Under the pieces are notes generated by a model. The model searched no databases and had not been told where the DNA came from. It saw nothing but the letters and a program-made list of their open reading frames with translations. A stretch of DNA of 64,000 nucleotides, from contig CM049404.1 of the NCBI GenBank assembly GCA_026929865.2, positions 27,119,001 through 27,183,000 of the forward strand, in the 5' to 3' direction. Below, one piece after another: positions 18,741 to 64,000 of the stretch. Position 1 is the stretch's first letter. Every line of letters starts with the position of its first letter. Made by a program: the position numbers and the translations under genes. This DNA is from Hyperoplus lanceolatus. Lineage: Eukaryota; Chordata; Actinopteri; Uranoscopiformes; Ammodytidae.

Positions 18741-38237
<19,497 letters not shown>

Positions 38238-38278: not shown

Positions 38279-38318
<40 letters not shown>

Positions 38319-38952: not shown

Positions 38953-39059
<107 letters not shown>

Positions 39060-40032
39060 GGAGTGTGTGTGTAGGCGTGCATTTGTGCTGCTTTCAATGT
39101 GTGTTAACGTATACTTGCATCTGTTCTGTGCATGGACTGTATGTGTATCCGTACATGCATCTTAAGCTTGCTCACTGTTCATACGCTTGGTTGATGGAAA
39201 GTGGTATAGATTTTGAAGAGTGAATGATGAGTGAGTGTATTTGCACGCAACATTAGCGTAGCATAAGTGTACTATTTTGTAAAAAAATGAGTTGACAAAG
39301 TGATGGCTCACCCAGTTGCAGTTGGTCGCCATGGTGAGGATGAAGTTTTAACCACAACATTTTTTCTTGATGTACTGCATTCATTGAATTTACTATCACT
39401 GCAAAATGGAGCACTCGCCAAGCCACTTCTTCCTACAGTGGCTTCACAGTCACTACCGAACATCATTGGAATGACTGTCAGACCAACAGACTATATAAAA
39501 GCCTTGAACGCAGAGTCCTTTAACTGTCTGCTATGTCCATCTATTTGTCAGTGTTATTCTCCTTACATTTTACTGTATATTCTCTTTATACTATCTTTAT
39601 GTATAGTATGGTGACTTTTTTTTTCTATTGTTTATATTTAGTGTATCCGCGCTTACGGTCCATTTCTATGCCAAAGAATTTCCATTTCATAGCTCATGTT
39701 GTACTAAAATTTGTATTTTCTGTGACCAAATTTTGATCCAGGACTTGGATCATAGATATGGTGTGTGGTGGCCAAAACCTGTGATTTTTTTTTTTCTGTA
39801 GATTTGTCAGTTTCTTACGGACATTAGATACAACTGTACATACAAACTGCCAAAATGTGTAAGTCGAAATGGAACAAAAAAAATTATTCAGAATAACTTG
39901 CATTGATTTCTCCTATTCAATCCATTTTGTATCTCTTCCATGCTAACATTCCAATGTGACTGTTTTACCTTTTTTTTTACTAGCAGCCTATAGTTTGAAT
40001 ATGGATTTAACGTGAAAAATTACGAAGTGAAA

Positions 40033-40038
40033 AATAAA
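40033..40038 (+). terminator. cd34: Candidate poly(A) signal of cd34
   Basis: AATAAA followed within about 20 bases by GT-rich sequence. It is the first canonical hexamer with good downstream context after the long UTR. Confidence 0.55.
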
Positions 40039-40055
40039 TAACTTTTTATGACTCG

Positions 40056-42442
<2,387 letters not shown>

Positions 42443-42450
42443 GCTAATAG

Positions 42451-42825
42451 CTAGCCTGGCTCCGCCCGCCCGCCTACTTCCGGCCAAATTTTATTTTCCC
42501 TTCAGTAGTCAGTCTGGGTGTACAGCCCATTTCCCAGTTTTGCTGGAGATTCGACAGCCGGTCCAATCAGCGAACAGAGCGAGTGGCTGAGAACGATGAC
42601 GTCGAAGTCGCGCTCCAGTTTCAGTTGCCAGAAGCCGGCTCATGACACGCGTGACGATCAAACGTTATGCGATTGGTTGGCTAATCCAGAGTGGCACTGG
42701 GCAGATCCAATAGTTTTAAACTTTAACAGACACCCGCCTCCATGAGTTAACGTATGCCAATTAAAGCACGGCCAGACCTTCTGTACAAATGAAATGAAGT
42801 ACGATGGTCTGGTAGCACCAGGCTA
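42451..42825. mobile_element. MITE with 8-bp TSD (hAT-type)
   Basis: Identical GCTAATAG flanks at 42443-42450 and 42826-42833. The element ends are CTAGCCTGG and CCAGGCTA, inverted. The interior is GC-rich near the left (GGCTCCGCCCGCCCGCCTAC) and has CCAATCAGCG and GCGATTGGTTGG words. It has no coding capacity. Confidence 0.88.
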
Positions 42826-42833
42826 GCTAATAG

Positions 42834-45459
42834 CCATAATGTGTTGTTGGAAAAATCCATGTCATTTAAAAACAGTTGTTCCTAAAGTCTTTCCAGAATC
42901 CCCAAAAGGCTGCTCTACCCATTAGAATGAAAACATGTTTTGTCTGCTCAATGGTAAAACATTTTGTTTTAACATGTTTCACAAATTGGGCCTCTGTTTC
43001 CAAATCAAAACAAAGATGGCCGCCTACCGGCTACATGGATAGGAAATAGAGGGTCAACTTGGAAATTGTGACAAAAACCGTTGAAGTCTTGCAACTAGTG
43101 GAAATTGATTTTCATCCCGATAGTTAAGTAGGTGCTTGTAGACAATCCTTAAAAAACCCTACAGTTGTGAATTACCAATGGTTACTCCACTCCATAGTGT
43201 TGAAGGGAACTGTAGAGTGGGGTGAGAATACAACAACTCCTTCTACATGTAAGTAGCCATGTGATACATTTGTTTACTCTAAAAATGATTAGTCATATCC
43301 ATTTGTAGAAAAAATATTTGTAGAATAGTAGGCTAAAAGAAGATGGTATCAAATGTCCAAAACATTAGGAAATAGCAGACTTCTAGGGCTAGCTTGAATG
43401 CTAGAGCAAGTATCCAGGTGCTACATCGACATAAATAGATGATATGAGTGTTACAACATAACAGTTTAATATTGAATCTGAAAGTATGGACTGTTAGAGT
43501 TGTCTGCATGCTCAGGTCTGGATCTGGAAAGGAATAGACTACCCAATTGTGTAGATATAAATATACCTATGAGATATGCTGGAAGAGAGAAAACAAAACT
43601 GTCATCACATCAGATGGTCAAACGGAGATACATATCTGAACCAGTGAGCAAGCTGACTAAATATCCCTTTCAAAGATCTGTGAAAATGGATAATGTGCCG
43701 AATATAACTAAGGTAGAATTCACACAATTAACTAACTCGTGCAGAATCAAATGGCCTTCAGTTATAAAGAGTTCAAGTTGGTCTGTGACAAGAGGAAGTT
43801 TGAGATATGTGCTCCACTGAAACTTCCTGAGTTGATTTATGTTTTTGACATCTTGGCACCAATGAGAGGTTTTTTATTCCCCTCTCTCTCTCATGCAACA
43901 ACACCCCTGCATGAACACAACAGTACGCATCCGCCCACAATCAAATGGACATTCTCACAAAGTTCCTCAACAACTGGAGAGGCATTTCATATACTTCCAC
44001 ATACTTTAGAAAAACACATGCACCATGGGAAATGTACTATGCCGTTTCAAAGCTGTAATCCACATTAAGGGAGGGGCTCACTCACTGTAAGGCAAATATG
44101 GGCCCCCACTGAATAATGTGCGCACATAAGGGAGTGACCAGACACATCCTACATGTAACTGTCCCATTAGACAGCCGTGTCAAAGGCCAATCCGTTCTTA
44201 ATAATTTATTTTCCAAGTGAAATATTACACCTTTTTGCCCTGATTAAATGTCACTAAAAAATGTGTCTAGCGCTAATAAACTGCACATTCTTGTCATGCG
44301 TGCGTGTGTGGCAAGAGGCTACTTTTTAAAAATAAATATATTCAAATGTCCTCGGATAATTTTCTGACTTTTCTGACGAGTCTTTTGCTCTGTAGCATCT
44401 TTCTGTAATGTCTAAAACTGTTCAAATGCAGGGACTGTGCTGCGTTAGAACAGAAACGAAAATACTAATGACCAAAATATTTTGAAAAAGCTCAATATTT
44501 GGTCTCCATAGACACCTAAACAGCAAAAAAAAAAGCAAAACAACGGAAACTCAAATTGATCTCCCGTCTGTTTCCTGCACATTGCTCGGTGCTGTCGTCT
44601 ATTCCAAACATCTGCTCAGGGAAACAATCTGGAAGGCATTGTCTCTTTTTTTTTTCCAGTGATGCAAGTGTCCACAGAATGCACATGACACCCCGTAGTA
44701 AACTGCAAACCACAAAGTTGATTGTATACTATACTAAAGATAAAGTATGTACGGTATTGTACACATTGCACAGTAGAAACATATACTATTAGTCTTAATG
44801 TATTAGGCTGATCTAAAAGTTGTTATATTCGCTTCTAAATGCATCAAATTAAATGTTTGTTTGAAATGTAAAAACTTTGAAAAATGTACATGCCCAATAT
44901 TCTGCAAAGGCTTTACATCACCAGCCCACAGTCAAATGATCCTAGACTTTAGTCAGAGTGAAGCACACAGAGTAGATAGTTCCAATGTGATATTGTTGGG
45001 TTAGGATGCCCCCTGCTGTGGCCTTAGGGGCGTTTATTACAAGCGGCTGATAAAATAGTATTAAAATGTATATAATATGCAACAATGACCAACAACATAC
45101 AATATTTTTATTTATTTTTTTTTATATGTGTGAAAATTCTGACATCAAAGCATCAAGATGTTACCATGTCAGTTTAGGATAACAACATCAACTGCAACAG
45201 CCTCCAAACTATAGGCCTACTAGAATGTTTAAATAATCTAGCAGGCTAATGAGCTATCAAAGGCAAAATCAATTAGTGATCATTATCATCATCAATCATT
45301 CCATTAGAATGTATTCAATATTCAATATAGGTGAGCTGACATCAACTTGTGTTCTCTATTGGGCACGTGCAGTAGGCTAATAGTGAAGTCACATATTATT
45401 CATGAATTCAATATCTTAATTGATTCAAAGTGTTTTCTTCAATTATAAAACTTTTTTAG
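42834..45459. other. Intergenic stretch
   Basis: No gene, RNA or clear repeat was recognised. Part of 42890-43260 reads like a degenerate dispersed repeat. Confidence 0.45.
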
Positions 45460-45786
45460 CCAAAGCCGGAAGTGCACAGGAGTGAATGCTCTCGTCTCGT
45501 TGCGTCCACGCTCTCTTCCGCTCTGTGCTGCCTGTTTGTAAACATCATGCGTCAAAAGCACGTGATCCCGTAGACGCATTTCGGAGCAGCGTCCAATCAG
45601 GAAACGGAGGTGTGTGCTTGTGGGCGTAGCTCAGTTGTGTTGCTGTGAAAATATCGATGGATGGGGCGTTTGGTCAGTGCAGGGGGGCAGTTTGGATTTG
45701 ACAATAACTGGGAGGTTATGGCAGCATTATGACGGAGTAGTAAATATAGGAAAAGGGACCGGACGTGTTGCGAAAGAGGTGCTTAG
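45460..45786 (+). promoter_or_regulatory. CpG-rich promoter and first exon, putative miR-29 host
   Basis: A CpG-enriched stretch in otherwise AT-rich DNA. It has an ETS-like GCCGGAAGTG at about 45465, a FOX-like TGTTTGTAAACA at about 45532, an E-box CACGTG at about 45560, a CCAAT at about 45593, and GTGGGCGTAG at about 45621. It ends at a good splice donor TTAG|GTGAGT (45786/45787), so the segment could contain the promoter and first exon of the + strand unit leading to the miR-29 cluster. An alternative donor CTGC|GTGAGT is at 46377. The call depends on position and sequence only. Confidence 0.5.
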
Positions 45787-46082
45787 GTGAGTTACCTCCC
45801 ATCCAACGAGAAACCGTTCAAGTGTTTATTTACGTCAAGTGCCTGCTCCAGGGTATAGAATACCAATAGGGCCTATCTATATGGACATAGGCGATAGTGC
45901 GTCTATGGTGGGCAGTAGGTTTGTTTTTTGTTTTTTTAGCAACATATATAGGCCTACAGTAACGTGCTTCATTCGTTTTTTCATACATAATTTTTACTTT
46001 ACATAATCTCACAATTTGCGACGTACAATATTTAACTATTTTAAACCTGTTCCAATTGTAGCCTACAGTATGTTTCGTATGA

Positions 46083-46125
46083 TAGGAATAGGAATAGGAA
46101 TAGGAATAGGAATAGGAATAGGAAT
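46083..46125 (+). repeat. (GGAATA)n hexanucleotide array
   Basis: About seven tandem copies of the six-base unit TAGGAA. Confidence 0.95.
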
Positions 46126-46732
46126 CACGCACGAGCGCGATTTGACCAGTAAGAGGCGCAGTTCCCAGACGTTTCCAGCGCTGTTGCCAACGTTACCAGG
46201 AAATAATCAAGGAATTATTTTTGCTCTCAGCTGTTTCCTTATGAAACATGTGCGTGCTTATCTGCGTCTCATTGTGACCAGGGTGGGATGGAGAGGTGCG
46301 CAGGGAGGATGTTGCGCACTTCAATTTACCTGAGGAGTGAGTGAGGGTCTGTGCATCCATGCCGTAGACTCTACTGCGTGAGTATATTGATTTATGAGGT
46401 AGATGTTGTTGTTGTTATTGTCTGGTTATATTAGCCTAATATTTCTGAGTAGCAGTGCGGACTTAAATGTAATTGATTCCGTTTTTAATACATCTCTTGC
46501 TAGAGGTACTTTATACTAGTAAGTGTTATTGAAAGTTACCGATTACGGGAAATACGTGGGGGGGCGGGGGGGGGGGGTAATGAGTGTTGGAGAAAGAATC
46601 ATAAGGAAAGGTAATGATGCAACTTTTAAAGGACATTTAAAGTCAGTATCATAGAATACTAACGTTATTTTGTGTACTAATATTTATTATATAGAATATT
46701 ATAAGTATAGTATATTATAACTCTATTTAACT

Positions 46733-46800
46733 CGACGTCATTGTAAATGAGGGTCATCCCTCAATTGGTCTCTCGAGGATAAATAAAAGTTAAATGAAAA
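46733..46800 (+). repeat. LINE/SINE-type 3' tail, copy 2
   Basis: CCTCAATTGGTCTCTCGAGG then ATAAATAAAAGTTAAATG. It is the inverted counterpart of 19545-19627. Confidence 0.65.
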
Positions 46801-47681
46801 AAAAATATATATGTTATTATAATATTTGAAACGCAAAATGTATAAAGAAATGTTAAATCAGTTGCTCTATTCAATAAATATTATAGACTGCTGACTTTTA
46901 TTTTTGGTTTTACTATTATTGTAGGCTTAATTTAATTGCAAAATGTGTCAAATTCAGTCACATTTTGCTGTGCGTAGGCCCAGAGTTTAAATTATGTAAG
47001 ATTGTTTTTCCCCATTGTTCCCCCATTTGTAGAAAACGATTTTACCCTCAATGACTTTATTTATCTAAAAACACATTATTGATGCTTTCTTTAAATACTT
47101 AACTTTTTCCTCATCTGTGAATTTATACTGCGTGAGCCTGCTGTGCCGGTAGCCTTGACTCAGCTCCATCCATCCAGAGGTTTCTATGTCATACGCACTT
47201 TTTATTCCTGATGTAAACAAACCCTCCAAGAGTGATACTCTCATTCAACACTGGGTGGCGGATTTGTCCAGTCTTAGACCTTGTATTCAACATGAAGTAT
47301 AACAAAAAAAAAAATATTCTTGAGTCAGATATTATTCGGGGAAGTATTGATGCAACACTGCAGCTGTGGTGCTCAAGAAAAATGAGAGCCAGCCAGTGAA
47401 TGTTAGCTTGTATCCATTTCATGCCGCATAACTGGTTCATCCATCTGTTGTGCTTCGGAAGAAAATTGCCGGACTACTCTTGACGTAAAAAAAAAAAAAA
47501 AAACAGAATCACTGCAGTCTGCTGACCAATTGATTTGCTTAGTGCTTCCGAGGAGGCACAGTAAGAGGAAATGGTACCATAGAATGGGCTCAAATGTATT
47601 GGAGAGTAGAGCTACAATATTAGGATTTGACTCACAAATTGCTTGTCTTTGAGATAAACACTTCTATTCCTCTTTTCACAG

Positions 47682-47718
47682 AAGCGACCTAGGTATTCCT
47701 TTCTACTCTCTGTAAAAG
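47682..47718 (+). ncRNA. Putative miR-29 host transcript exon 2
   Basis: A 37-base segment between a strong acceptor (CCTCTTTTCACAG) and donor (AAAAG|GTAAGA). No long frame runs through it. It is called from splice-site quality and its place between the CpG-rich promoter and the miR-29 hairpins. Confidence 0.4.
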
Positions 47719-48132
47719 GTAAGAGCCAGTGCGTCTCACAACAAACGCAGCCAACAACATCTAGGATGAATGGCATAACGTCTCATTATTTATATCAATT
47801 ACTACCGTAAAGTCTTTGCTGAATAGAATTTGACAAGATGCATGTTTTGCATAATTAAAATGCATGGTGTGTGTGTGTATATAATATAAGTACCAACATT
47901 CTCTTCGTTTGCAATCACACACAGCATTAAGGTGTTATATCAGTACATAGAGTCACTGTTCTCATTAACACTGTGATTCACATAGGAACTGCTGAGCTGA
48001 GGGGGAAAAACATTCTCAATTTGCTGTGTAGTACGTTTGACATGTCTGGAAATAAAGCCTTGGAATTTTTTTCAGGACCTGCCCTAGACAATTTTTTCCA
48101 TCGCACAGTACGTGATGCTGGAACACATCCCC

Positions 48133-48133
<1 letters not shown>

Positions 48134-48197
<64 letters not shown>

Positions 48198-48198
48198 C
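48134..48198 (+). repeat. (GA)n microsatellite
   Basis: A GA array with CAGAGA interruptions. Nothing else was recognised between 47719 and 49714. Confidence 0.95.
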
Positions 48199-49714
48199 CT
48201 GCTTGCTTTCGTACCGCAAACCAGGTAATACCAGATCAAGATTACCCTTTTTTACTTTCAATAAAACACTGCAAGACATTCATTTTATTGTTGCCTGAAT
48301 GTATGTGTGGGTGCATTAATACCCATTGTTCCAAATACAGCCCCCCCCAAACAAAAAAAACAATATCAATGGAGCAGACTGGGCACCTTTCCAAAAGGGA
48401 GAGATTAGGGTTTAGGAAGTGGAACAGGAATGGCTGATAGATGACATGGCTAAAATTAACACAGCGCTCACTGAATGAGGAGCATTAATAGCAGACGGAC
48501 CGGAAGGAGCACTTGGAGGTGTATTTAAAGCTGTAGATTGTCTCTGTCAGCATGAACACAAACCCCTAACATACAGTACAGTATAAAACATTAGATTTTT
48601 TGTTGAGCTACTACGTTGTTAAAAGCAAAAAATCCCATATCTGCAAGGATTGGATATGGATAAAGTAGGACACAAAAAACTATGAATTATTTGATATAGT
48701 AGGCCAAGTAATATATTTTCAATTGTACGTTTTTTATTCTATCTTCCAAGCTGGAAATCTATCACCAAAATTAGCCATGTGCTCGGCTTCCATGCCTATT
48801 CCTTGGTGGTATTTTGTCTGGTAAGGGATGCACAGCACATACAGGTTTTATCCTACAAGAGCAGATAGGCCTCAGATCGATAACTTTAGTATCTAGCAGT
48901 CTGTTTGGGATATAACATGCTTTGATCCCTCAGATCCCTTACATTTACCATATAGCTGGAGGGTAAATGCTGATTATTTTACCCATGCTCCTCTCTGTCA
49001 GTCACGTATCTTAACTACAAGTGAATTTTACTGCAGCATATTATTCCATATCAAAACCTACACTTGTAACCTGAGGATAATGGAGAGGTTAAGGCATTGA
49101 AATAGACGGCCTTCAAACTATCTGACACTACAAGAAGCTTCAGGCAGTCAGTGAGACAGCGCTGTAGCATAGAAAATATTCTCAAAACCTTGCTATGATG
49201 TTTGGAATAAAGTGTGTATCCATGTTTTTTTTTTTATAGAGTATGAATTATTTATTCAGGCACTTGTTGAACAAGCACATTGTCACGTATCTCTAGTACA
49301 AATAGAGGGGGTGGTGAGTTGGACGAAGGCACGCACTTTGTTAACCTTTTGTTAGCCGATACGAAGCTGTTAGTTCCACTTAACATTTAAATGGGGGCTT
49401 TATACTTCAGAATAGCAGACAGACTTAATACGCACAGACTTGTTGAGAAACAGACAAGCTGGACTATGAATATTTATTATGAGAATTCTTTCATAGTGGA
49501 TGTATCTTCATTGGAACATTGCATTCAATAGAATGCTACTGTAATTTGGCCCATTTGTCGTTAATCCGTCATGCCACAGTCCAAATAGCCAGCTGCAAGT
49601 TATAGTGCCAGAGTCAGTAGCATTATCCGTGAGACAGCTTTTGTATGTCACAAGGCATTTCCTTTTAATTTTGCACTCTAAAAAGTATTTTTTTTTCTTT
49701 TTCTCTGCCCACAG

Positions 49715-49745
49715 CTCAAATAACATGAAGAATCATCTGATCAAG
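49715..49745 (+). ncRNA. Putative miR-29 host transcript exon 3
   Basis: A 31-base segment preceded by a long pyrimidine tract and CCCACAG and followed by AAG|GTATGT. It includes an ATG (49724) whose frame continues MKNHLIK into the next putative exon. Confidence 0.4.
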
Positions 49746-50243
49746 GTATGTGAACAATCTGAATAAACAGTTGAGACCTACATTCCTAAAATTAACTCAA
49801 TGTTTAACCAAATCAAAACAGACTATTTATAAGACATGGACACACTCCTTCTAAAGGAGCAGCTACATTACATCTAATAAAATACGCTTGCATAAATATT
49901 ATGCTATCACGTATTAGTTTACAATATCGTGTTTTTAATTGCTGTCATGTTTTTAGTTTGAACGAATAACTATGATTTGGAGTAGGAAATGAGGATAAAA
50001 CCACAATCTGTGTTCCCTTTAAGGCAAAGCTGTGGTAGGAAGTTTTTTGAACTGGAAGAGGAAGTGCATTAATGTGTGGTAGTTATGTTCATGGTAAAGT
50101 GTCAAACTATAGTTGTGGTGATCAATCACTCTACACTGTATTTAAAAAAATAATACTTGCCTTGCTCTGCAGGGTTAAAACAAGTAGTAACATTGTATGA
50201 GGAACGTCTTGTATTCTCAGTGATCACTATATTAACCTATTAA

Positions 50244-50602
50244 AGGTGGAGTCAGCAAGTCTTGAGAGCGCTTGTTGTCAAAATCCAGTTTTCCCAATAT
50301 CAGTGAATATCTCCTCACAAGCTGCTACCTGTCCATAATGCGCTGAAAAGGAATCTGGTGTTAGTACATAGCCTAGGCTCTGTAAACTGGTATGTAAACA
50401 AATGGAATGTAAACAAAGGGACCCACCGAAGCTAGCAAGATGCCCGTTGGCGTTTACAGAGCCTAGTCTGTGTATTAACACTGGATCATTTGTCAGCGCA
50501 CACACAGGTAGCGGATTGTAAAGAGGTATTTATTTGTTTATTGATTTCGTCAAAGAAAAGTGTTTCGACAACAAGCATTCTCCAGAATTGCCTACTCCAC
50601 CT
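50244..50602. mobile_element. MITE family C, copy 2 (TTAA-flanked)
   Basis: TTAA at 50240-50243 and 50603-50606. The ends are AGGTGGAGTCAGCAAG and ...GCCTACTCCACCT. The second inverted pair AGCCTAGGCTCTGTAAAC / GTTTACAGAGCCTAG lies in the centre. It is a non-coding piggyBac-like element. Confidence 0.88.
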
Positions 50603-50739
50603 TTAACTCATGGGTATTACAAAACAATACCATAACATTGTCATACTCGTTTGACTATTCAAATAGCCATAACGAGCGTGTTTTCTGTGCTTATGCAACT
50701 GATACACAAGCTGGTGATGTGCCTTTAAAAGCAGCGGGT

Positions 50740-52460
50740 TGTCAGGTGATCGAAGAGAGACTCAGTCAGCTCAGCCTCACAGACACAAGAGCCAGAGTGC
50801 GTCTGTAGTCCGAAGGGGAGGAGAGGAGAGGAGAGCTGCGTTGGAGAGAGAGAGACCCAATTATAAGGGCAGACAGGGGGGAAATGGGGACACGGCAACG
50901 TCACAGGGAGCCATGGTGGTGGTAGGGTCCCTTTAACTGCAGTCTGCTCATGCTCACTCGCCTTGTGTGGCAGCTAGCAAGTGTGTGTTTCTGGCTTCAG
51001 CTTGATCAAGAAAGTTGCGTTGCACAGCCACAACACTGGCATAAAAAGCACAGAGAATTAACTGCTGCGTCACACACACCAGGAAGAGGAATAGCGTGAG
51101 CATGCGCGCGTGTGCACGGCTATGCGCGTGTGTGTGTACAGGCTCTGCTGCTGCGTGTGTGTGTGTGTTCTTGTGTGTGTGTGTTGGAAGTAACAGTCGA
51201 AGAGCAGTTTTTGCTGTTGCAACGAGATGAAAATAAAAAGAGTGTGTGTGTTTGAGAGGAAAGCAGAAAAGGGAGAGAGAGACAGAGATGCAAAGAGAGA
51301 GGAGAGGGAGAGAGAGAGAGAGAGAGATTGTGGATTAGTTGCTACGTCACTTTTTCATGTCAGGAGAAAGAAGCTGATATGAGAGAAGCCCACAGTCATC
51401 GACTCTTCCACCTGAAGTGGACACAGTGGTTTCGGACAGCCTCGGCTTTCTCGGTAGTTGTTGATCTGCACTGCCTGTCGCTGCCATATAGTGTGTGTGT
51501 GTGTGTCTGCATGTGTTGTGTAGAACCTGTGAACTGATGCTGGGATTTTTTCAACATGGATGCTGGAGATGTGACACAGTTTCCTATATTAGGTCTTGTT
51601 TTGATAATATGGCATCGGTAAGGTGTGTGTGTGTGTGTGTGTGTAAGGTGACAAAGGGGTTAACAAGAGAATATTCTGGAAGGCTCTTAATATCACGACG
51701 AAGCTCAGTCCGGAATGTTTTCCTCAGAATTGTCGAGGTATTTTCGAACATCACTTTTGCCTTTTTTTTTTTTTTTGCCAACGTCATCTCAAGAAATACA
51801 AATGATTATTGTCTAAACAGGGCGATAGAATCCTGCACGGTGTCGTCGGACCTATTATGAAACCATATGTTCGATACGCCATTATAAGGACTACTGTACA
51901 GATGCAGCCAGGTAGACTTTATAGTAGCTCACGGGATAAGTTTGGCATTCAATTCAGTGAAGAGGGTGGTGTTTTTTGATGACCACTACATATGTACACC
52001 TGTGTCTCTGTTGGAGCTGTTGACTGTTGGCCTGCTTATTGTGATTACATTAGTTGAAGGAAAGGCTGTAGAGATAGGGAGGCAGGCACGTATGAAGGCG
52101 ATTCCAGTTGTGTGTTTGTTTTCACACAACTATCATGTCTATGATTCGTGGCACTTTAAGTCATGTGATTTTGTTTGCACCCTCCAGGGTCCGCTGGGAA
52201 TCGGCTGAATCCTCCCCAAGACACATTTGTTTTTCTGCGTAGTTAGGAAACAGAGATGGTGACGCAGTCGTTTCGGGGCCGGACTTCTCTTTTGGCCGGT
52301 ATACGCAGCCTGCAGCTCTCCCATTCTCCCTCTGTCTCTTTATCTCTCTCTCTCTTTGAGAAATGGGAGCGACAGAAGGGGCTAAATGTCATGGCACAGG
52401 ATCAGTCAGATAGATAGAGAGAGAGAGAGAGAGAGATAGACAGAGAAATGGAGACAGAGG
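50740..52460 (+). other. GA/GT-rich non-coding stretch
   Basis: It contains GA-rich runs (50815-50850, 51289-51327, 52412-52440) and short GT runs (51127-51183, 51492-51505, 51624-51645), with a TATA-like GCATAAAAAGC near 51040. It could be an alternative start for the pri-miRNA, but I cannot support an exon. Confidence 0.3.
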
Positions 52461-54050
52461 AAGAGTGAGAAGTTGTTTACCTTGCTCTCTTGGTGACTCT
52501 GCTTTGGCTTGTCTCCAGTTCACAGGCACTGGACTTCCTAAAGCTGCTGCATCACAGGCCACCGTGCCAACGCTGGCTTCTCATTGGATGGGAGGAGCCC
52601 CACAGCACTGCTTTATTGGCTTAATACAAGCGAGCAGCTGGAGTTCAATGTCTGATTGGCTAAGAGGCATTGTTCTCTCTTACAATGGTTGTGCAGTAGC
52701 AGAAACACTTGTCCATAGATACGTGATGAGTAGCATGTATGCTTATATGGATTGAACTTTTAATACGGTAATACATGAATTAGTAAAAAGTTGCCAGGGG
52801 ATTTTTGAAGGAAAAGGTAACATTTGTTCACTATGTGAGTTTAGAAAGTGATGCATCACAAATGATTTTACATTGCTTCCTGTGTTTTTTTTTTCTGTGA
52901 AGTGATTATCATACATATTTCTTCTTGACTATGATGATATGGCAATGCATACCTGCCGCTTTATAATGCAGAAGGCATTATTTTACAGGTATTGTTATTT
53001 TTTAGGGAATGCATAGGGGGGCCGAAAAAATAAAGTGGCAGGCCTTAGTGTTAACTCTGAACTGTCAGCATGAGATAACTGCTAGGCATTGTCTTCCTGC
53101 CTAAAACCCTCTGATACCTGTGATGAGTGCGGCAACCAGAGGAGAGGTGGTCTCACTATCTATACTGGAGATCGAAATGTCCAAAAGACGCCACATTTCT
53201 CAGATGATGCGTGCGTATGTGTGTGTGTGTGTTTGTGGCTGCCCGATGGTCTGCATTGCAGCTCCTGCTTCAACAGTCAGCGTCTTCCTTTCCCTTTCGT
53301 TCTTGCTTTCACTCTCTCTTCTATATGTGCTGATGCTCTAGTATACAGTATACAATCGCTGCCTATTTATTTTTACTTTACAAAGACGATCGTATACAAG
53401 GATGTTAGCTGAAGCTGGTACTATCCCAGTCACCTCACCCCAATGGGGGGGTGGGGGTCATTCCTCATGAATGAGTTAACACCACGGTGACTTAGTGTAT
53501 CAGTCTGTGCATGCTACACATCAACAAAAGGCAGAATTGTCTGAGACAGGCGTACACTATTTCAGCTTCCTTGCAAAGAGTTTTTTTAAACAATCTGCTA
53601 TATTTTAATTTGATAGTATTCTCCATATGTGTTAAAGTATAGCTGTAAGTGAGCAAAAAGCCTATCGTTAATGTTTCAGCGATTAACTACTGCCATTAAA
53701 CTCCTATTTCTCTGTAAAGAAGGAGGGCTGTAAAGATATTCACCCCTGCAGGGTTTCCCCAGGGTGCTTCAAAGCTCCTTCCTGATTCCCGACTCTGGCC
53801 GCTCTCTTAAGGCGTCCTGCCCCTTTAAATCTTTTATAAGCATTACACAACAGGTCCAGTGGCACACAAGCAACAAACAACTCGAAAAAGACGGGGTTGG
53901 GTTGAGCCATCCAGGAACCAGACACCTACGGATAGACAGGCCGTCTGATCAGAGGCGTCACTGTGGCGACAGTGCAAACACACACGTAGCCACAGAAGGC
54001 TGATAGGGCCTTGTAAAGGCTGTGTGGATTGTGTCCTTCTGATCTTGGCC
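52461..54050. other. Non-coding stretch
   Basis: No gene, RNA or repeat family was recognised apart from a short GT run near 53217-53231. Confidence 0.45.
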
Positions 54051-54054
54051 TTAA

Positions 54055-54421
54055 AGGTAAAGGTAGTGTCAGTGAATCTGGAGAAACATTCACAAATCAG
54101 TGAATATCTCCTCACGATCCACTACCTGCTTTGTGTGAGAAACACAAATCCCATTTCATCTATATCACTCTCAGATCATGAGGAGATAGTGCCTAGGCTC
54201 TGTAAACAAGAATGTAAACAAAGCTTATGTAAACAAAGGTGGCTGTGTCGTAGATAGGAACGCACCCGTTTACAGAGCCTAGGCTGTGAATTAACACTGG
54301 ATTTTCTTTCAGCGATGCACACAGTGCGTACAGGTAGCGGATTGTGAAGAGATATTCACTGATTTTGCCAAAAGGTTATTTTGACAACAAGCATTCTCCA
54401 GTATTTGCTGACTTTGCCCCT
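54055..54421. mobile_element. MITE family C, copy 3 (TTAA-flanked)
   Basis: TTAA at 54051-54054 and 54422-54425. The right part reads TTTGACAACAAGCATTCTCC, matching the other copies. The central CCTAGGCTCTGTAAAC and TTTACAGAGCCTAGGCT words are present. The left arm is diverged. Confidence 0.85.
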
Positions 54422-54791
54422 TTAATCGGTTTCAGGAGAAGTAATGTTTGTGGGAGTTGTCACTTGTAAACACAGAAGAAATGAAGGCAGACTGTGTGTG
54501 GGTGTGAGTTCTGGAGGGACGAGTGGGAGGAAGCCAGACAATGAATTGTAAGTGGTCCTTTCACAGAGTAAAAAAAAGCCGTAGGGGGTAAAACAAAAGT
54601 CAATTACAAACGGTTGCGTAATTTCTTTTTTCTAAACTTTTGTTGAAACACTTGGCAATAAGTCAGTGAACTGGCCACTACCTGTCCTTGCCCCACCCTC
54701 TCTCTTCAGTGTGTTGTAGCTGCGTATCTGCGTCATGGCTCTCATTGCCAGCTATTGACTTGCCACTTCCTTGCTTTTTTCCCCCTTGTAG

Positions 54792-54903
54792 TGGGCCGGA
54801 GAGCAAGGCTGCTGCTCCTCACATCATCCTCACTGCTCTACCATAGCAGCAGAGAGACGGGGAAGGACTCATCGACGAAGTCCATACGCATATAGAGCTG
54901 CAG
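54792..54903 (+). ncRNA. Putative miR-29 host transcript exon 4
   Basis: A 112-base segment with a very strong acceptor (CTTTTTTCCCCCTTGTAG) and donor (CTGCAG|GTGAGC). It begins TGGGCCGGAGAGC. It lies 1.8 kb before the miR-29b hairpin. Read after the preceding putative exon it stays open throughout (44 codons from the ATG at 49724); whether this is coding is unknown. Confidence 0.5.
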
Positions 54904-56312
54904 GTGAGCCTGTGTTGTGTGTGAAATACATATATAGAGTGGCAGTGTTTTGTGTGTGTTTGTGTGTCTTGTTTGGCCCTTCAAACATCCGCAAAGCTCG
55001 GATCAAGTGTCAGATCAGCCGTGTGGGCGTGTTACAGAGAGAACGATTAAGAGAGAGAGATAGAAAGAGAGAGAGAGAGCTGTTCTGGTGCTTTCTCAGT
55101 GGTTTCCCATTTCATCTATATCACTCTCTCTCTCTCTCCCTCTCCCTCCATCAGTGTCCCTCCTCTCTGGCCTGAAACAAAGCAGTTAATCAGACTGGAG
55201 AGATGAGCCTAAACCGTCCCAGAGTGCACTGCATTCAAAGTGTCTGACAGTATCAAAGGTGCTCGTCAAGCTTCCCTGGATCATCATCTAGACCCGGTCA
55301 ATTTTTTTAGGTTTGCTGAAGGGCAGAAACCTCCTAGCCCTCCTCCACTTGCCTTTACGTGGCTTTTGCCCCTTGTCAGGCCGCCATCGTAAATAAGAAC
55401 TTGCCTTTCGGAAAAAAAATAAAATGACGTGGTGGCAAACTAAACTTAATAGGAGGCACTGTTACTAATTACGTAATCACTAGCATAGGTGCAATGGAGA
55501 CCAATAAGGTGTGTTTAAATTTTTTATTATTTTTTTGCATAGCGTAAGGCATCCAGATGAACCAAGACATAATACCACATGCCTCTAACAGCTGTTGTCT
55601 CCTCTCTGCCCCCTCACAGATCTCATTTGAGTCAACTTTCTCAACTGAAAAACACAACCAATGTAACAGTCCATTGTGATGAAATGGCATGCATATTTGT
55701 AAAACAATATTGTGGGTGTTTAGCTGCTGCATAATTCGCAGCTGCAACCATGCAATGGATAGTTTCTACATGACATACTATCAGCTGCTCCATCAGAGAT
55801 GTCTCTTTGTGGGGGCAACTTTCTTATCCATCTACAATTTCAGATGAGTGATAAAAGTAAAGTACCTGGTGAGAAACAGATCTCTACAGCAAAGTTATGG
55901 AAGCCGAGGGTAAAAAAGGGTTTATTAAACCCCCAAAAATATAGCACAAGATAACTATGGAGCAATCAAATACAATGATAAGTGAAGAGAGGAGAGAAAC
56001 AATTTTTAGAACACATGCTTTGTCGTCTCAAGATCTTGAGATGAAACAACCTTTTGTGCTAACGGGAACCTTATCGTGTTCCCTAGAAAAGGAATTGATA
56101 ATTATCTTGTGATCTCTAGATAGGAGCATTTAATATTTTAAGTAAGAGAAAAGAACATTTTGTTTTTTGAGGTCACAAGACAATGAACTCTGTTTTAATT
56201 ACAGTAAATGCAGATATTCAGCTATGTGTATGTCTGCTGCTGCATTGGAACCACCTCTCAAATATTGTTTTAATTAGTCCGACTACACTGTTTCTACCTT
56301 GTTTTGTTGTGT
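54904..56312 (+). other. Non-coding stretch before the miR-29 cluster
   Basis: It holds GA and CT runs (55048-55080, 55121-55148). No further exon could be supported. It is probably pri-miRNA intron or terminal exon. Confidence 0.45.
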
Positions 56313-56530
56313 TTAAGCTTTAATGCGTAACCTTTTCATATAAATTAATGTCGGCTACATCCAAGCCATCTTTCGGTTGTGGATTCTACTGCTAAGAAAA
56401 CCTGGACATACAGCAGAAGAAAATCAATGCTTGATCACCAGAGGCTTACTGCATGTAGATAGACTGACTGTTGTTGTGATTGCTCAGAATACCTCATGGG
56501 GGTGACAGAAGTTAAACACCATAGCTTTAA
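56313..56530 (+). mobile_element. MITE family A, copy 5
   Basis: TTAA at 56313-56316 and 56527-56530. It contains TAATGCGTAACCTTTTCA, CTGCTAAGAAAACCTGGAC, ATACAGCAGAAG, TTACTGCATGTAGAT and GAAGTTAAACACCATAGCT. It ends about 120 bases before the miR-29b hairpin, so it is likely inside the primary transcript. Confidence 0.85.
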
Positions 56531-56647
56531 ACTAACATCAACTTATAGTAATTGTTATTTTACCTTTTTCCATTGTTATTTAGTTTTTTTTTTCCCTTTA
56601 TTTTTTCAGTTTTATGCCACAGAAGGATACCTTTTTTCAGACATGCC

Positions 56648-56727
56648 CCCCTTGGAAGCTGGTCTCAGATGGTGGCTTAGAATATTGTCATCTATCTAGC
56701 ACCATTTGAAATCAGTGTTTTTGGGGT
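56648..56727 (+). ncRNA. mir29b: mir-29b precursor
   Basis: The 3p arm at 56697-56719 begins TAGCACCATTTGAAATCAGT and continues GTT, which is the mature miR-29b-3p sequence. The 5p arm CTGGTCTCAGATGGTGGCTT (about 56660-56679) pairs with it across a loop near 56681-56696, and the lower stem pairs around TGGAAGC. The seed AGCACCA is intact. miR-29 represses collagens, other matrix genes and DNMT3 in vertebrates. The position between cd34 and an RCA gene matches human MIR29B2, which lies between CD34 and CD46. Confidence 0.97.
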
Positions 56728-56910
56728 GGGAAAGTGTATTTCCCTCGCCAGCAACAGGCAGCTGTGAAGTGTCACAAGTGGTACCTGAAGATAAAAGGTA
56801 AACGAGAGGGACAACTTCACCTGGCAAGTATCACTCCCTGAAGCACTGCTCACTGGGCTAAGAACCAAGCGTCTACAGCCATGTTTTGACAGCTCACGAT
56901 TTTTGTCCTC

Positions 56911-56993
56911 TCTCCAAGGTTGACCGATCTCTTTTGGTGTTCAGAGTTTGCTTTCGTTTCTAGCACCATTTGAAATCGGTTACAGTGAAGGCG
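56911..56993 (+). ncRNA. mir29c: mir-29c (29a-type) precursor
   Basis: The 3p arm at 56961-56982 begins TAGCACCATTTGAAATCGGT and continues TA, equal to mammalian miR-29c-3p (mammalian 29a has C at position 10). The 5p arm TGACCGATCTCTTTTGGTGT at 56921-56940 closes the hairpin with loop TCAGAGTTTGCTTTCGTTTC. It starts 264 bases after the miR-29b mature start, so the two are almost certainly co-transcribed. Naming as 29a or 29c depends on convention in the fish species. Confidence 0.97.
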
Positions 56994-57089
56994 AGATATC
57001 ATCTTACCTGGAGGAGGATTGTGCGACCGAGCAGTGCTCTTAATCTTACTGTTTGGCCGTAGTGAAATGCTGTTAGCTCTCTCGATGAT

Positions 57090-57720
57090 ATCAAGTGTTT
57101 GCAGTGGAGGAAGAACTGTTACTTGCATAAAAGTAACACTACAAAAATACTATGTATTGTGTGTAAAGGTCCTGCATTTTATTAAATTAAAAAGGTACAT
57201 CAATTATTAGCAAAATGTTTGGTTTTGTATATTATACTTTTATCTACAAAGCAACTTCATACACCTATAAAGAATCGGGAAAAAGAGTATTTTCCGTTGC
57301 ATTGTTGAGATGCAAGTATGAATGAATATGGATCAAAAAAAAGTTTGATAAAATGAACTAGTGACAATCCACCACTGGATGTTGGTCGGCCAATATAATG
57401 TAATGAAGGGATCATTTGAACTATTTCTGTCACATCCACAAGGTGGCACTGTAATATATTGTTGCGTAAATACTTTTCATTTGTGCCCATAGTTGGCATT
57501 TTAAATGTTGAGTCAAATTAAATGAGTAAATTGAGTCAAGTTTAATCTCAAGCTTGTATAGTCCATAAATCAAATGTTTACTGATGCTTTATTTAAAAAG
57601 TAAAGTGATTGCAGTTCAAGTTTATTTATTATTAAAGTAACTTGCCTGTAGTAAATGGCTCATCATTTTTTTCCTCAGAACTCATTTCTATAGAAGCTGT
57701 GGATTTAGGATAACGTGTGC
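57090..57720. repeat. Dispersed repeat fragments after the miR-29 cluster
   Basis: Contains GCAGTGGAGGAAGAACTGTT, AAGTAACACTACAAAAATAC and GTCCTGCATTTTATT wording, common in fish genomes. The family is unidentified and the limits are approximate. Confidence 0.5.
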
Positions 57721-57961
57721 TGCAATAGCTTTCAAATATTAAAAAAGCAGTACCAATGAGCTATTTAGTGTTGATATTTGTACACTCCCTTCTTGCTCAC
57801 TGTATTTGAATATGCGCAATACCTGGAATGTATATAGATGAGCTGATGAAGTTTCATTAACTTTTTCAAGCTCCATTTCAAAACAAACAAATTCCTTCAA
57901 TTCGTCTTTAACCAAGCTTATTAGAGTTGTGAACACGGGTGAGTCGTTAGTGTGCAATCGT

Positions 57962-57967
57962 TTTATT
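57962..57967 (-). terminator. Candidate poly(A) signal of the RCA-type gene
   Basis: TTTATT on + reads AATAAA on the minus strand, about 970 bases after the stop codon of the minus-strand gene. It would give a 3' UTR of about 1 kb. Other hexamers further left (near 57626) are possible. Confidence 0.4.
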
Positions 57968-58933
57968 TCTTTGATTAAAAAAAAAAAAGTGCCAATTTAA
58001 GAGTTTTACTCCTCACTCAAAACAATGTAAAAAGCGTTAACGATATTGTGACACACATATCTATTCAATAAATAAAAGATAAAAAGCCAGGCAAGTGCAA
58101 ATTTTCAAAGATCACAATCTGTACAACATTATGCAACCACAGAAACACTTTCCGTGACCTAATACTCTATTTTCTCTCCTTTTCTGGCATTAATCTGAAA
58201 CACTAGAACACTTTGGACGATATTTACTAAACAACTCATTTAGACAAATTAATATTTCCTTTGTTATGAACAAACAATGTGCCATTAATTAGCATGGTTA
58301 TTCTGCATAAACATCAAGCAAAATAAGACCCACATTTGAGCCTACATTAACTCATCCCAACATGGGTTATCATGTATGCAATTCACAGGACAAACCCTTG
58401 AAGGGACAAAACACGCTGAAAAGTTTGACTTTCTGCATTAAGGCATGTGGTACATGCCTCATGTTTAGGCACTATGCTAGGGACTGTTTTCAAGACCCCA
58501 TTGACAGCAGGACTAGTTTAGAGACTATTAGCCAGCTGTATTTAAAAAGGTGAAACTTTTTCAGATTTTGCTTTGTGAAGCGGTCGGTGAACCTTTGCAA
58601 TATCGGCCAAGCTGAGAAATGCTGTGCTACTGCAAGTTTTAAATGAAAATGGAAATATCATGCCTTCATAATTACAGAAAAGGATCCCAAATGTCACTGA
58701 CTTGAATTTTTCAGAATAGGCAGAAATCATAATGAGTGACCTGTCAAAGATGGAAGATATTGTCAACTGATCAGAGAAAACACTTCAAGCTCAAAACTAA
58801 GGTTAAAGTTAAAGTTACAGATGATTTTGAACCGCTGATCGATCGTCCAGAAACCTTTTTTCATGGGGTTTTATAAACATGTGCGGCACAATTACATTCA
58901 AGGACTAGTCCGGTCACACTCCTCTTCATTTTT

Positions 58934-58985: not shown

Positions 58986-61900
58986 CTACAGAAAAAGAAG
59001 ACGCAAAGAGAAGCTTAAATTAGACGACTTGTGATACATCATATTTAAATAACCTGTACAGCAGCACTGTGAAAGAGGAAAAAAGGAACTGTGAAGAGAC
59101 ATTGCACAACAAGTTAGTTAAAAGTCTGGTATAATATAGAAGAGGGAAGAAAAATATCTTGAACATTAATGGCATGCCATTGACATATAGGATGCATAAT
59201 ACACATGATTTTGCCTAGATTACATTATTCCTGTTCATCGCATCGTTATCCGTTCAATTGGCGAAGGGAAAAAAAAGAAGAGTTTAAGTGTGCTTGTTGG
59301 TCCATCTTCTTACCGAGAGTGCTACTTCCTCCCCATGATTTGTAGCGTCATTGATAGGATAGCCTCTTGTAGAGCTGCAATCCAATATTCACTGGTCAAC
59401 ATTACTGATTTTGTATGACCAGGCAGACAAGAAAGCTTAAAGAAGAAGGCGACAGCAACACACTCTATAAGCCACACGACTACAGACCACCCATCTACGA
59501 AGAACATCTTACACACAAGGCCTGTCATCTACTGCTAGCCCTACGTCTCGTACAGCCTGAATATTAAAATTGGGTTGGTAACTTTAACCTGTTCATTTTT
59601 AAGAGCAGGAGACAATGGTCATATCATATGGTCTGGTGTTCCAAAAAATTACACTGAGATAACTATTAAAAAAAACCAGCTAGAATAATCTGTCAGATCT
59701 AATCAGTTCTTAAATGATTCATTCTAAAAATGTTTAGAACACCGTTCTTAATGAAATAAATATATGACTATAATTACCAACACATGCTCTGTGTCGTCAC
59801 ATTTCTTTTGATCAAATTGACTGCCGCTGCCTCCATCTTTTAATTCATAAGCATAACTTCTATGCCAGACAAGTGGCCCTTTGATGCTTATTCAAAGTCT
59901 CACAGTGAATTAGGCATTACACACAACTTACTCTACCCCCACAGGTTGCCTAAGAAACACGTCTCAAAACATGATTTACCACAACTTCCGATTTTGCAAA
60001 GTTGAAATTCGCCATGAATGAATCAGAAAGGAATTTTCAAGCACAAACTACTAACTTAGCATTGTATTGCAAAAGTTATTTCAAAGACATTATTTGCCTT
60101 CCGTTTACCCAGGATCAAAACTTTTCTCATCTTTATTCAATACTCTGCCCCATAAAAAAGGCAGTTGTGACCAAGTGAGTATCATGCAGCTCTGTATACA
60201 GCTTATTATTACACACAACACACAAGACGGACAGAAAGCTTGGACAATAAGAACATGCTGTGAGCGATCAATCACTGTTAACGGTTGGTGTGACATGCAA
60301 ACAAAAACATTGAACAACCAGGACAGAGACGAAGCCATTACAAAAGGTTAGTCTGCATAGTTAAATAAAAAAATATATATTTTACCCTCGATTTCTCTTC
60401 TTGAATGGTGGGATTCCACGCCAATAAAAGATGACGACAATGATGACAATGGCGGCTAAAACAGCGATGACTATTCAGATGAGAAAAAAAAAGATGTTTG
60501 AAGATTACTGGGAAATAAAAAAGATGGACCGGCGATTGTAGTGCCATTGGGCATGAAAAGGATGAGATTGGTGATTCTGAAGAAATGTTTCTCTTCTCAA
60601 ATTATCGCAGAACAATGATTTATATTGCCAAGGTAGTCCCATGAAAAAACGATGTGAATGGTGATTCCTTAGACATCTTCTCTTCTAAAATGAATGCCGG
60701 ACAATGATTGCTATTGCCAGGGTTCCCACACGTTGTGAAATATCATTGAAGGACTTTTTTTTTTTTAAATATGTGTTTAATGTTGGTTAATACTGTTACA
60801 ACACAGACAATTGTTGTAATTGAGGCTTTTTAGTAGTCCTGAAGTCTTCCTGCATACACACTACTCTATTCACTATTCATATTTTACTCTAGTATTACTA
60901 TGTACACATCTGGTCAATGATTCGACTCCTTTGTGATTTTCTCTTATTTTCTGTACATATGACATCTATTGCATGATGTCCGTCCGTCCTGGGATCCCTT
61001 CCTCTGTCAACTCTCCCTGAGATATCTCAATTTTTTAAATCCCAATAAAAGGGTTTTTACTGGGAGTTTATTTTCTCAGCCGAGCTGAGGGTCTAAGGGC
61101 ATGGTGTGTACGGAATGTAAAGCCCACTGAGGCAAATGTCTATTTGTCATATTGGGCCATTGTACAAATAAAACTAATTTCATTTGGTAGCTGACAGAGA
61201 ACGCCTTTTGACTTCCCTGTCATGCAATACGTGACCATAGTGATGTCTCAACACACACGTCGGGACACATGTATACAGGACGGAGGAACGTGGTCTACTT
61301 ACTAACGTTAAGGGACGAACAATACAAAATAACATACATTTCTTATTATTGCACAAAATGTATCAATTCAAGCCATTTAAAAGAATTGTGTCTATTTATG
61401 TCCAATCCATTGTCAAAAATGCTCAATGTCTTGATGTTTTAACTTCGATTCACAAATGGTAAAGGGACCGCGGGAACCCTGCATTGCTATTTGTTAGATT
61501 AGCAAATCAGAAATGATTCATTCAACCTAATATGAACCTTTTCATAGCAAAACGGAAATCATCTATTTGTGAAATCATTTGAACATATTTTTTATTGTAT
61601 TTTCATGCTTTTAATTGTTCTTTTTTTGATATGTCTGAAATAAAATTGAATCAATCAATCAATCTACAAAAAAAAACATAATCACATAAGAGAACACATC
61701 CAGTCGCATGCAAATGTTCCAGTAGCTAAATGCCCCACTTTGTTCCACATAAAAACACAATGTCCTCTGTAGGTTTAAAAAGGTACACCACGTTATTCGT
61801 AATACCAGGTTTTCGTAGGTATTAGCAGTGTGTAGAAAGTCAGAATGTTCCTAAAAACTTGGATCAAAGATTGTGTTCAGTGGTAAGGATTTTTTATTTT

Positions 61901-63096
61901 TTATTTTTTTTCCTTTTCACCCAGACATTTTTTGAGAGGTGTAATCGCAATACCAAGATACTATAAAACCGTGGTATTTTGCTTAAGGTTATCATAGTGT
62001 CAGAATATCATACCGACCCATGCCTAGCCCTCAAGAAACTACACAGTCTACTGAAATATAACCATGCTGTTCAACTGAGACCATCATGTTCTTAATAGGG
62101 TCAACATCTTCTCCAGACATTGTTAAAGGACGGGGTTGAAACTTACCTATAAGAATAGTGTTCCAGGGCACAGGTTTAATTCCATCACTGCCTGTGAAAA
62201 AAAGAACACAAAAATGAGAGAATCATGTCAAACTGTGGTTTTGATTTAACTGCAATTGCTCAAGAAATTGGTCTGATGACCAAACAGGTGTTCCCTTCTG
62301 CACAATAAAACCAATGAGAATCAAGTCCAATCAAGTCTACTGTACTGGCCTGCACACAGCATATCATCAAGGGCTCAGCAGTGTTTTGAGGGAAACATTA
62401 ATGATCAGATAACATTTTTTGGGCAATGCCAAGAAGTGTGTTTTGACCGCCGTGTGGCTGGCCTACACATGAGAACATTCTAAATCATAAATGTTAAACA
62501 TGTTAAATTAAGATTTTTCATGAAAAAAGCCTTAAAGAGATATCAGCTGTAAACCTATAATACAGAGTTTTCCTAATTTAGTAACATCATTTTTGTAACA
62601 TAAAAAAGGGGCCATTTTGAGTCACAGCAACAACGAAAGATATATAAATTGCGTAATCTGTTGTGGTAACTTCCTGATGTTTAAAATGTATTGAACTACC
62701 TAGCAAAGGAAGGATACACTTGACAACTACGACCACATAGATGCAAGCACAGTAAAATGATAGGGTAAGTTGTGTGAATAAGCTAATCATTAATGAATGC
62801 AATGATATCTGGATTGGTGTGTAATCATGTTTTTGCCTTGTTTTTAAATCATAGCATCTTCATAACAGGTCAATTTTAATCTTAGAGACTTCATATCAAG
62901 TCATTTTTCATTTATGACTTACATGTTGGAAGTGCGGGCTTCCACTGGCCTTTGTTTTCACACGTCACGGTGGGATTCCCTACCATGTTAAAGGGTTCTT
63001 TGCACTTGAATGTCACCGTTTCCTTGTATGTGTACGGGGGTGAAGATTCTTCAACCTTCTCAGCATTCTTAACCTCAGGTGTGTCGCACGATACAA
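58934..63096 (-). CDS. Complement-regulatory membrane protein, CD46/Tecrem-like (3' part)
   Basis: The C-terminal end of a type I membrane protein of the regulators-of-complement-activation family; such proteins bind C3b/C4b on host cells and aid their inactivation by factor I. Exons in transcript order: 62923-63096 (sushi domain), 62147-62191 (stalk), 60386-60470 (transmembrane), 58934-58985 (tail and stop). All borders are GT-AG and the phases 1-1-1-2 agree. The sushi exon has the four-Cys pattern: SCDTPEV, FKCKEPF, VTCENKGQW, and a fourth Cys split across the splice (T|GC). The next exons read SDGIKPVPWNTI, then the helix LIVIAVLAAIVIIVVIFYW, then GIPPFKKRNRGKRG and a short tail ending VKMTG. 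Further sushi domains and the signal peptide should lie beyond 64000. The order next to cd34 and miR-29 matches mammalian CD46. It could instead be a DAF- or CR1-like paralogue; the teleost name Tecrem fits this class. Confidence 0.88.
60386..60470 (-). CDS. RCA-type gene, transmembrane exon
   Basis: It encodes the rest of the helix VIAVLAAIVIIVVIFYW and the basic stop-transfer FKKRNR. The acceptor is CATCTGAATAG and the donor GG|GTAAAA. Confidence 0.9.
60531..60735. repeat. Diverged ~89-bp tandem repeat
   Basis: Two and a half related units. Shared words are ACAATGATT.TATTGCCA, CCATGAAAA and GGTGATTC, with CTTCTCTTCT after them. It lies in the intron just upstream (in transcript sense) of the transmembrane exon. 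Confidence 0.65.
60960..61195 (+). repeat. Fish retroposon-like 3' end
   Basis: Contains GTCCGTCCTGGGATCCCTTC, CTGAGATATCTCAATTTTTT, AAAAGGGTTTTTACTGGGAG, GAGGGTCTAAGG and TACAAATAAAACTAATTTCA, a widespread fish repeat layout. The family name is uncertain. Confidence 0.65.
61570..61665 (+). repeat. LINE-like tail with (AATC)n
   Basis: TGTCTGAAATAAAATTGAAT followed by (CAAT)n, a common LINE 3' end. Confidence 0.6.
61790..62030. repeat. Degenerate MITE-like repeat
   Basis: GTAATACCAGGTTTTCGTAG... and ...AAACCGTGGTATTTTGC, TATCATACCGACCCATGCCT are wordings of a fish DNA-element family. The ends are poorly preserved. Confidence 0.45.
62147..62191 (-). CDS. RCA-type gene, stalk exon
   Basis: A 45-base phase 1-1 exon with acceptor TTTTTTTCACAG and donor ATAG|GTAAGT. 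Its first two bases complete the last Cys of the sushi domain; it then encodes SDGIKPVPWNTILI. Confidence 0.88.
   Translation of the reverse strand, partial: AVMELNLCPGTLFL
62923..63096 (-). CDS. RCA-type gene, sushi (CCP) domain exon
   Basis: A 174-base phase 1-1 exon encoding one CCP module. It has Cys at VSCDTP, FKCKEP, VTCENK and the split codon, and the conserved Trp in GQWKP before the last Cys. The acceptor is TTTTTTTCTCCCTGCAG and the donor ACAT|GTAAGT. Confidence 0.92.
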
Positions 63097-64000
63097 CTGC
63101 AGGGAGAAAAAAATAAAGAAAAAAAGGGAAATTAATAGAATTGTGAATATATTGATACTACTCAGTCGTAATTTAAAAAAACGCAAAAAAGACCAAGGTT
63201 TAAAAATTAAAGTTTATGGGGGAAAAGGAAATTTGAACTTTTTCAAATTAGAAGAGTTTTTTTTTTCTGAAAAACAATACTTATGGATAAAATAATCAGA
63301 TTGGTAATTCTGTTTCTGGCTATTCCAGGGAATTCAGTACAGTTCTCATCAAATGTATACAGACAATCAATCATGTTAAAATGCAGTATTTCAACAAAAA
63401 CACTGATTTAAAACAGCAACCACCACCACTCGTCGCCATCATAATTGTCCAATTCTACACACACACACACACACACCACTGTGATCACTTGGACCATTCC
63501 ACTGAAATTCCTTCACAGAAACACAATGACGGCAGTTTGATGAAAGCTCTATTCACTTGCTTTGATACAGTGAAAAAGTCGAAGCTTTAGGTGTCAATCA
63601 CACACACCAAAAGCTTTTTTGGCAAACACAAGTTTCACCATTCCATCAGGTGAATGCGGCTACTGCTATAAACAGTTATCAATTATTAATATGGAATATT
63701 ACGTAATAGCAAAGAAACCAACCGAGTCCACCAGTTACCAACAATCTCACCAAAGCATAAAAGGTATTGCATGGATCACACCTTTACAACTGTTCCATTT
63801 AGTTTGGTTATTGATCAGTCCCTCATTTTAAAGAGCATAATGAGTTGGCAGGATGCTATTGAGTACCAGGCCTCATGCAGATCAAAGAATAGAGAATAGA
63901 AAGTGGCCAATATTCACTTTGGCATTTCAGCGTCACAGCATTCCAAGTGCCGGCAGTACAAGTAATGTCTGCAGACCCCTCTGCATGCCTGTAGCCATCG
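63097..64000 (-). other. Intron of the RCA-type gene, right edge
   Basis: No further sushi exon can be read before the window ends. There is a short CA run at 63457-63476. Open frames here lack cysteine spacing or splice context. Confidence 0.6.

Follow-up and report, generated by a model that had tools for sequence, protein, structure and literature searches.

A mir-29b/mir-29c cluster downstream of cd34 in Hyperoplus lanceolatus, a probable ortholog of human MIR29B2/MIR29C

The closest described system to the locus reported here is the human MIR29B2/MIR29C cluster (1q32.2; host MIR29B2CHG, also C1orf132), in which two hairpins presumably lie on one strand in the order 29b then 29c, as they do in this fish. 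The host transcript of the human pair is non-coding and spliced, and its last exon holds both hairpins; the targets of miR-29 include collagen mRNAs. In human as in mouse, MIR29B2CHG is flanked by CD34 and CD46, its direction of transcription relative to these neighbours is alike in both species, and it is described as having 5 or 6 exons, with the promoter ~20 kb upstream (PMC8268529). A review (PMC4536984) places a second human cluster, 29a/b-1, at 7q32. We searched the literature for mir-29 together with its neighbouring genes or with genome duplication in fish. Among the papers listed, which did not include the teleost microRNA study of Desvignes et al. (2021), we saw none on the synteny of mir-29 in fish; Mir-29 is not mentioned in the main text of PMC8789304.

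Two mir-29 hairpins on the + strand

The window, by which we mean the whole 64-kb stretch of DNA analysed, is C10:27119001-27183000 of a genome of 806.7 Mb. A previous reading of the bare letters (the sequence-only reading) had placed an intact miR-29b/miR-29c cluster on its + strand, inside 56648-56993, and we found it there: the only two gathering-level Rfam matches in the 64 kb are hairpins of the mir-29 precursor family RF00074, whose gathering cut-off is 46.7 bits.

56654..56721, + strand: mir-29b precursor hairpin, first of the pair (RF00074, 62.4 bits, E 3.1e-11)
56697..56719, + strand: mature miR-29b-3p (23/23 letters identical to human)
56918..56985, + strand: mir-29c precursor hairpin, second of the pair (RF00074, 58.5 bits, E 3.7e-10)
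56961..56982, + strand: mature miR-29c-3p (22/22 letters identical to human)

In a scan of 38300-58300, the antisense readings of the two hairpins scored just 28.1 and 26.0 bits, so the + strand is clear for both. A mir-29 hairpin is near-palindromic, and a wrong orientation is easily overlooked. We also ran the folding check that the sequence-only reading had proposed, and the segment does fold as hairpins, with z-scores near -3: the minimum free energy was -35.8 kcal/mol for the first (z -2.97; 3 of 200 shuffles equally good) and -29.2 kcal/mol for the second (z -3.13; 2 of 200). The two had been described as 264 bp apart, which is correct as the distance from one mature start to the other and incorrect as the gap between the hairpins, which is 196 bases; the human spacing we take to be several hundred bases.

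Two sets of further candidates were rejected. A third hairpin at 56985-57110 was not called, as 22 of 200 shuffles folded as well (z -1.19). Weak Rfam matches to microRNAs and snoRNAs at 52.3 kb and 54.1-55.2 kb were all below their cut-offs, several of them on both strands of one stretch.

The two mature 3p sequences are letter-for-letter those of human, as listed in Table 2 of PMC7545844. The 17-mer TAGCACCATTTGAAATC that is common to both occurs twice in the window, both times on the + strand, against a chance expectation of ~2.5e-5 for both strands. For the bare seed AGCACCA we counted 12 occurrences over the two strands, where ~12 are expected, and we discarded this count alone as evidence since it carries no signal. 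Its placement is another matter: in both window copies the seed occupies positions 2-8 of the 3p arm, within the hairpin. The 5p arms differ from those of human MIR29B2/MIR29C by a few bases. The arm of the first hairpin is identical to human 29b-2-5p at 20/22 positions and to 29b-1 at 21/24, and that of the second is identical to 29c at 19/22 and to 29a at 20/22. With these scores and the seed lying inside the hairpin, both belong by sequence and fold to the mir-29 precursor family.

Genes on either side of the pair

A cd34 gene had been named as the upstream neighbour, and a gene of the CD34 family does lie upstream of the pair on the same (+) strand.

31236..31480, + strand: cd34 exon, Ala/Thr/Ser-rich mucin-like stretch (AG/GT borders, phase fits the next exon; outside the Pfam match)
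33229..33306, + strand: cysteine-bearing cd34 exon (AG/GT borders, phase fits; outside the Pfam match)
35497..35608, + strand: cysteine-bearing cd34 exon (AG/GT borders, phase fits; no Pfam match when taken alone)
35772..35824, + strand: short cd34 exon (AG/GT borders, phase fits)
36300..36446, + strand: cd34 transmembrane exon (AG/GT borders, phase fits; within the PF06365 match of the joined protein)
38046..38237, + strand: last coding exon of cd34 (tail ADTEL, then stop; within the PF06365 match of the joined protein)

The phases of these six exons are compatible across all five junctions, and every internal border is AG or GT. Joined, they give a protein that matches Pfam CD34_antigen (CD34/Podocalyxin family, PF06365) at 42 bits (cut-off 26.3). 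The match spans residues 163-275, which are the transmembrane and tail exons, and the outer exons were assigned by position, phase and composition. The transmembrane exon alone stays below cut-off, with CD34_antigen at E 0.23 and two other families at E 0.0049. We did not find the first exon of the gene. From the cd34 stop to the first hairpin there are 18,416 bases. The tail of the window protein carries the motif DTEL, which we take to indicate CD34, DTHL presumably indicating podocalyxin. According to a figure legend in a review of CD34, proteins of the CD34 family have the tail motif DTEL or DTHL (PMC10220851).

Downstream, and convergent with the cluster, lies a gene for a membrane protein with sushi domains.

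60386..60470, - strand: transmembrane exon of the sushi gene (AG/GT borders, phase fits, hydrophobic stretch)
62147..62191, - strand: short linker exon of the sushi gene (AG/GT borders, phase fits; no Pfam match)
62923..63096, - strand: sushi (CCP) exon (PF00084, 52.2 bits, cut-off 20.7; AG/GT borders)
63898..64000, - strand: partial sushi-like domain running past the window edge (pattern match; the frame 63859-63999 alone has no Pfam match)

We compared the sushi exon 62923-63096 with PDB sequences and obtained 71 distinct chains at E <= 0.001. Among the 60 of these that were listed, CR2 and CR1 were foremost; factor H was also present, and membrane cofactor protein (CD46) was matched at E 1.4e-18. 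The adjoining 3 kb of the contig holds three further sushi-like stretches on the same strand, found by a pattern search whose pattern gives chance matches elsewhere; the two that were scanned against Pfam were both over the cut-off (35.7 and 24.5 bits). CD46 of tongue sole has four sushi modules and a transmembrane region (PMC5670209). Judging by its sequence, the downstream gene encodes a membrane protein with sushi domains, of the kind that regulates complement, and is a counterpart of CD46 only putatively. The earlier description of this neighbour as a complement regulator stands as far as a sushi-domain membrane protein on the - strand is concerned, and does not extend to one-to-one orthology with CD46.

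The order in the window is thus cd34 (+), mir-29b (+), mir-29c (+), sushi gene (-). This order and orientation match the published CD34 - MIR29B2CHG - CD46 arrangement, and the locus is, as had been proposed, in the same place as human MIR29B2/MIR29C. The two systems share their mature 3p sequences and their CD34 and complement-regulator flanks; they differ in the downstream gene, which in human is CD46 and here its putative counterpart. The strands of the human block also agree with the window layout. The proposal that gene order and orientation are kept "across bony vertebrates" holds for one fish genome set against human and mouse, and in its wider form exceeds these data. As a test of reading raw sequence the outcome is a clean positive: a real microRNA cluster was found and correctly placed.

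Four mir-29 places in the genome and the identity of the window pair

A search of the genome with RF00074 returned eight matches, seven of them over the cut-off; the one below it was an antisense reading of the hairpin on C6. The same search of 14 control genomes gave a sub-cut-off signal in one. The mir-29 hairpins lie at four places, as pairs on C10 (the window), C2 and C22 and as a single hairpin on C6, beside which no mir-29 partner was found at E up to 1 within 9.9 kb on each side.

C6:25890746-25890815, - strand: single mir-29 hairpin, its mature 3p sequence altered at one position (position 10)

At three of the four places a mir-29 pair lies downstream of a CD34-family gene on the same strand, at 18 kb on C10 and C2 and at 106 kb on C22, where mkln1 lies between. 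Searching the genome with the Pfam CD34 family gave exon-level matches on C2 (two) and C22 (one). As the cd34 gene of the window itself escaped this search, the lack of a match near C6 carries little weight.

On C2 a plexin, the CD34-type gene and the mir-29 pair are all on the minus strand, in the same order as on C10. The first hairpin lies 17,737 bases beyond the CD34-type tail (18.4 kb in the window), and the tail, which reads ADTEM and then stops, is 57% identical to that of the window cd34. One plexin exon from each place was compared with known structures, and the best match was plexin-A3 on C10 and plexin-A1 on C2. Plexin exons are common, with 55 matches in the genome and several places on C10 and C2, and we restricted ourselves to those close to mir-29. 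We rejected the plexins on C22 (6.97 Mb) and C6 (27.09 Mb) as plexin-A partners because one exon from each was compared and matches plexin-C1 and plexin-B2, respectively, best. No sushi-like domain was seen in the 9.9 kb that follow the C2 pair, where two pattern matches are both broken by stops. Judged from sequence, C10 and C2 are a duplicated CD34-linked block with plexin-A, a CD34-type gene and the mir-29 pair on one strand.

Other genes accompany the C22 pair. Exons of muskelin (mkln1, PF06588), found nowhere else in the genome, lie between it and a CD34-family gene whose tail reads EDTHL and then stops, and whose similarity to the window tail is at chance level (E 0.53). The order mir-29 pair, mkln1, DTHL gene is presumably that of human chromosome 7, and on these grounds the C22 pair is likely the podocalyxin-linked cluster, as expected of MIR29B1/A. 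Human MIR29B1/MIR29A (7q32) and this likely counterpart resemble the window pair in family and in their near-identical mature sequences; the C22 pair differs from it in having mkln1 and a DTHL-ending gene at a distance where the window has a DTEL gene close by.

Both 3p sequences on C22 are identical to the two in the window, which rules out mature sequence as a discriminator between the b2/c and b1/a types, and the neighbouring genes therefore decide the assignment to MIR29B2/C. On C2 the first hairpin has 2 of 23 positions changed relative to human 29b-3p (21/23 identical) and the mature 3p sequence of the second is unchanged; the C6 hairpin has 1 of 23 changed (22/23 identical). Among the seven hairpins, the second on C10 is closest to its equivalent on C2 (76%, versus 67% to that on C22). 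The first is nearer to that of C22 (73%) than to that of C2 (66%), and the hairpins by themselves are therefore no proof that C10 pairs with C2.

We conclude, with a probability of about 0.95, that the window pair is the ortholog of the human MIR29B2/MIR29C cluster, retained downstream of cd34 and doubled at C10 and C2. The cluster would have lain downstream of cd34 since before the fish/mammal split, and its two copies would remain from a duplication of the block or of the genome, with the teleost genome duplication as the likeliest event. Points against this conclusion are the moderate fold z-scores, the first hairpin's greater likeness to C22, the lack of a sushi-like domain in the 9.9 kb examined beyond the C2 pair, and a 3' splice-site filter (see below) that was passed within 100 nt of a hairpin at one of the four mir-29 places, C10.

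We regard it as very improbable that the cluster is instead of the MIR29B1/MIR29A type of human chromosome 7, with podocalyxin as its CD34-like neighbour. The mature sequences are the same under either assignment, the 5p arms are ambiguous (that of the second hairpin has 20/22 positions in common with human 29a and 19/22 with 29c), and the first hairpin as a whole is closer to C22 than to C2. However, the window gene ends in DTEL, the DTHL-ending gene and mkln1 accompany the C22 pair instead, and the window copy is flanked by plexin-A and a sushi-domain gene; the C22 block largely refutes the assignment. Slimmer still is the chance that the window hairpins are decayed copies that have lost expression: their folds are the weakest of the seven (z -3.5 to -6.2 for the other five) and their 5p arms are altered, as in the two mismatches of the first to 29b-2-5p, but both 3p sequences are letter-perfect against human, which one would not expect of dead copies given the age of the split, and the first C2 hairpin and the C6 hairpin have drifted more in that arm.

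As the ortholog of MIR29B2/MIR29C, the window cluster is a well-kept, ordinary ancestral cluster. It adds a further genome to those with a duplicated plexin-A - CD34 - mir-29 block and a separate mkln1/podocalyxin-type cluster, and this helps in naming the copies. We think it unlikely, though worth stating, that the CD34-type gene and mir-29 are joined by shared regulatory DNA that predates the vertebrate genome duplications, with the 3p drift on C6 and in the first hairpin of C2 hinting at a division of labour; gene order is the sole observation behind such a bond.

A putative host transcript and other elements of the window

We infer a non-coding + strand host transcript that would start between cd34 and 56.6 kb and carry both hairpins in its last exon.

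56610..57190 (3' end approximate), + strand: putative last exon of the host (ATTAAA at 57181; 3' splice-site-like sequence ahead of the first hairpin)

The 3' splice-site-like sequence ends 44 nt before the first hairpin and has 19 pyrimidines in the 20 positions ahead of its CAG; sites passing the filter occur in the window at a background of 0.54 per kb per strand. The sequence on C2 that aligns with this site of the window has a T-rich stretch and AG but fails the filter, and no site within 100 nt of a hairpin passed it on C22 or C6. Stretches that are somewhat richer in CpG lie at 42301-42800 and 45401-45900, and our guess would be a promoter in one or the other. Drosha and Dicer would release miR-29b-3p and miR-29c-3p from the transcript, and the two, with their common seed AGCACCA, would repress target mRNAs. 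Views on the action of miR-29 are unchanged by the window cluster.

A dispersed repeat (56368-56419) ends ~190 bases ahead of the putative exon. It resembles stretches at 31664-31716 and 12930-13183, and also near the DTHL-ending gene of C22.

At the other end of the window, 9996-10109 (+ strand) is a Tc1/mariner-type transposase-like fragment, with DDE_3 at 21.6 bits (below the cut-off of 28.6). An inverted repeat occupies 2208-3110 and 3303-4205, a CpG-rich stretch, with arms of 903 nt that differ at 2 of 903 positions and a spacer of 192 nt. A 138-aa frame in one arm had no Pfam match over the cut-off. Among 126 matches listed for the arm in the genome, at least 43 are near full length at >=93% identity, the window's two included; this count is a lower bound, as only the best candidates were scored. 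The arm looks like a young, many-copy element that is present here as two inverted copies.
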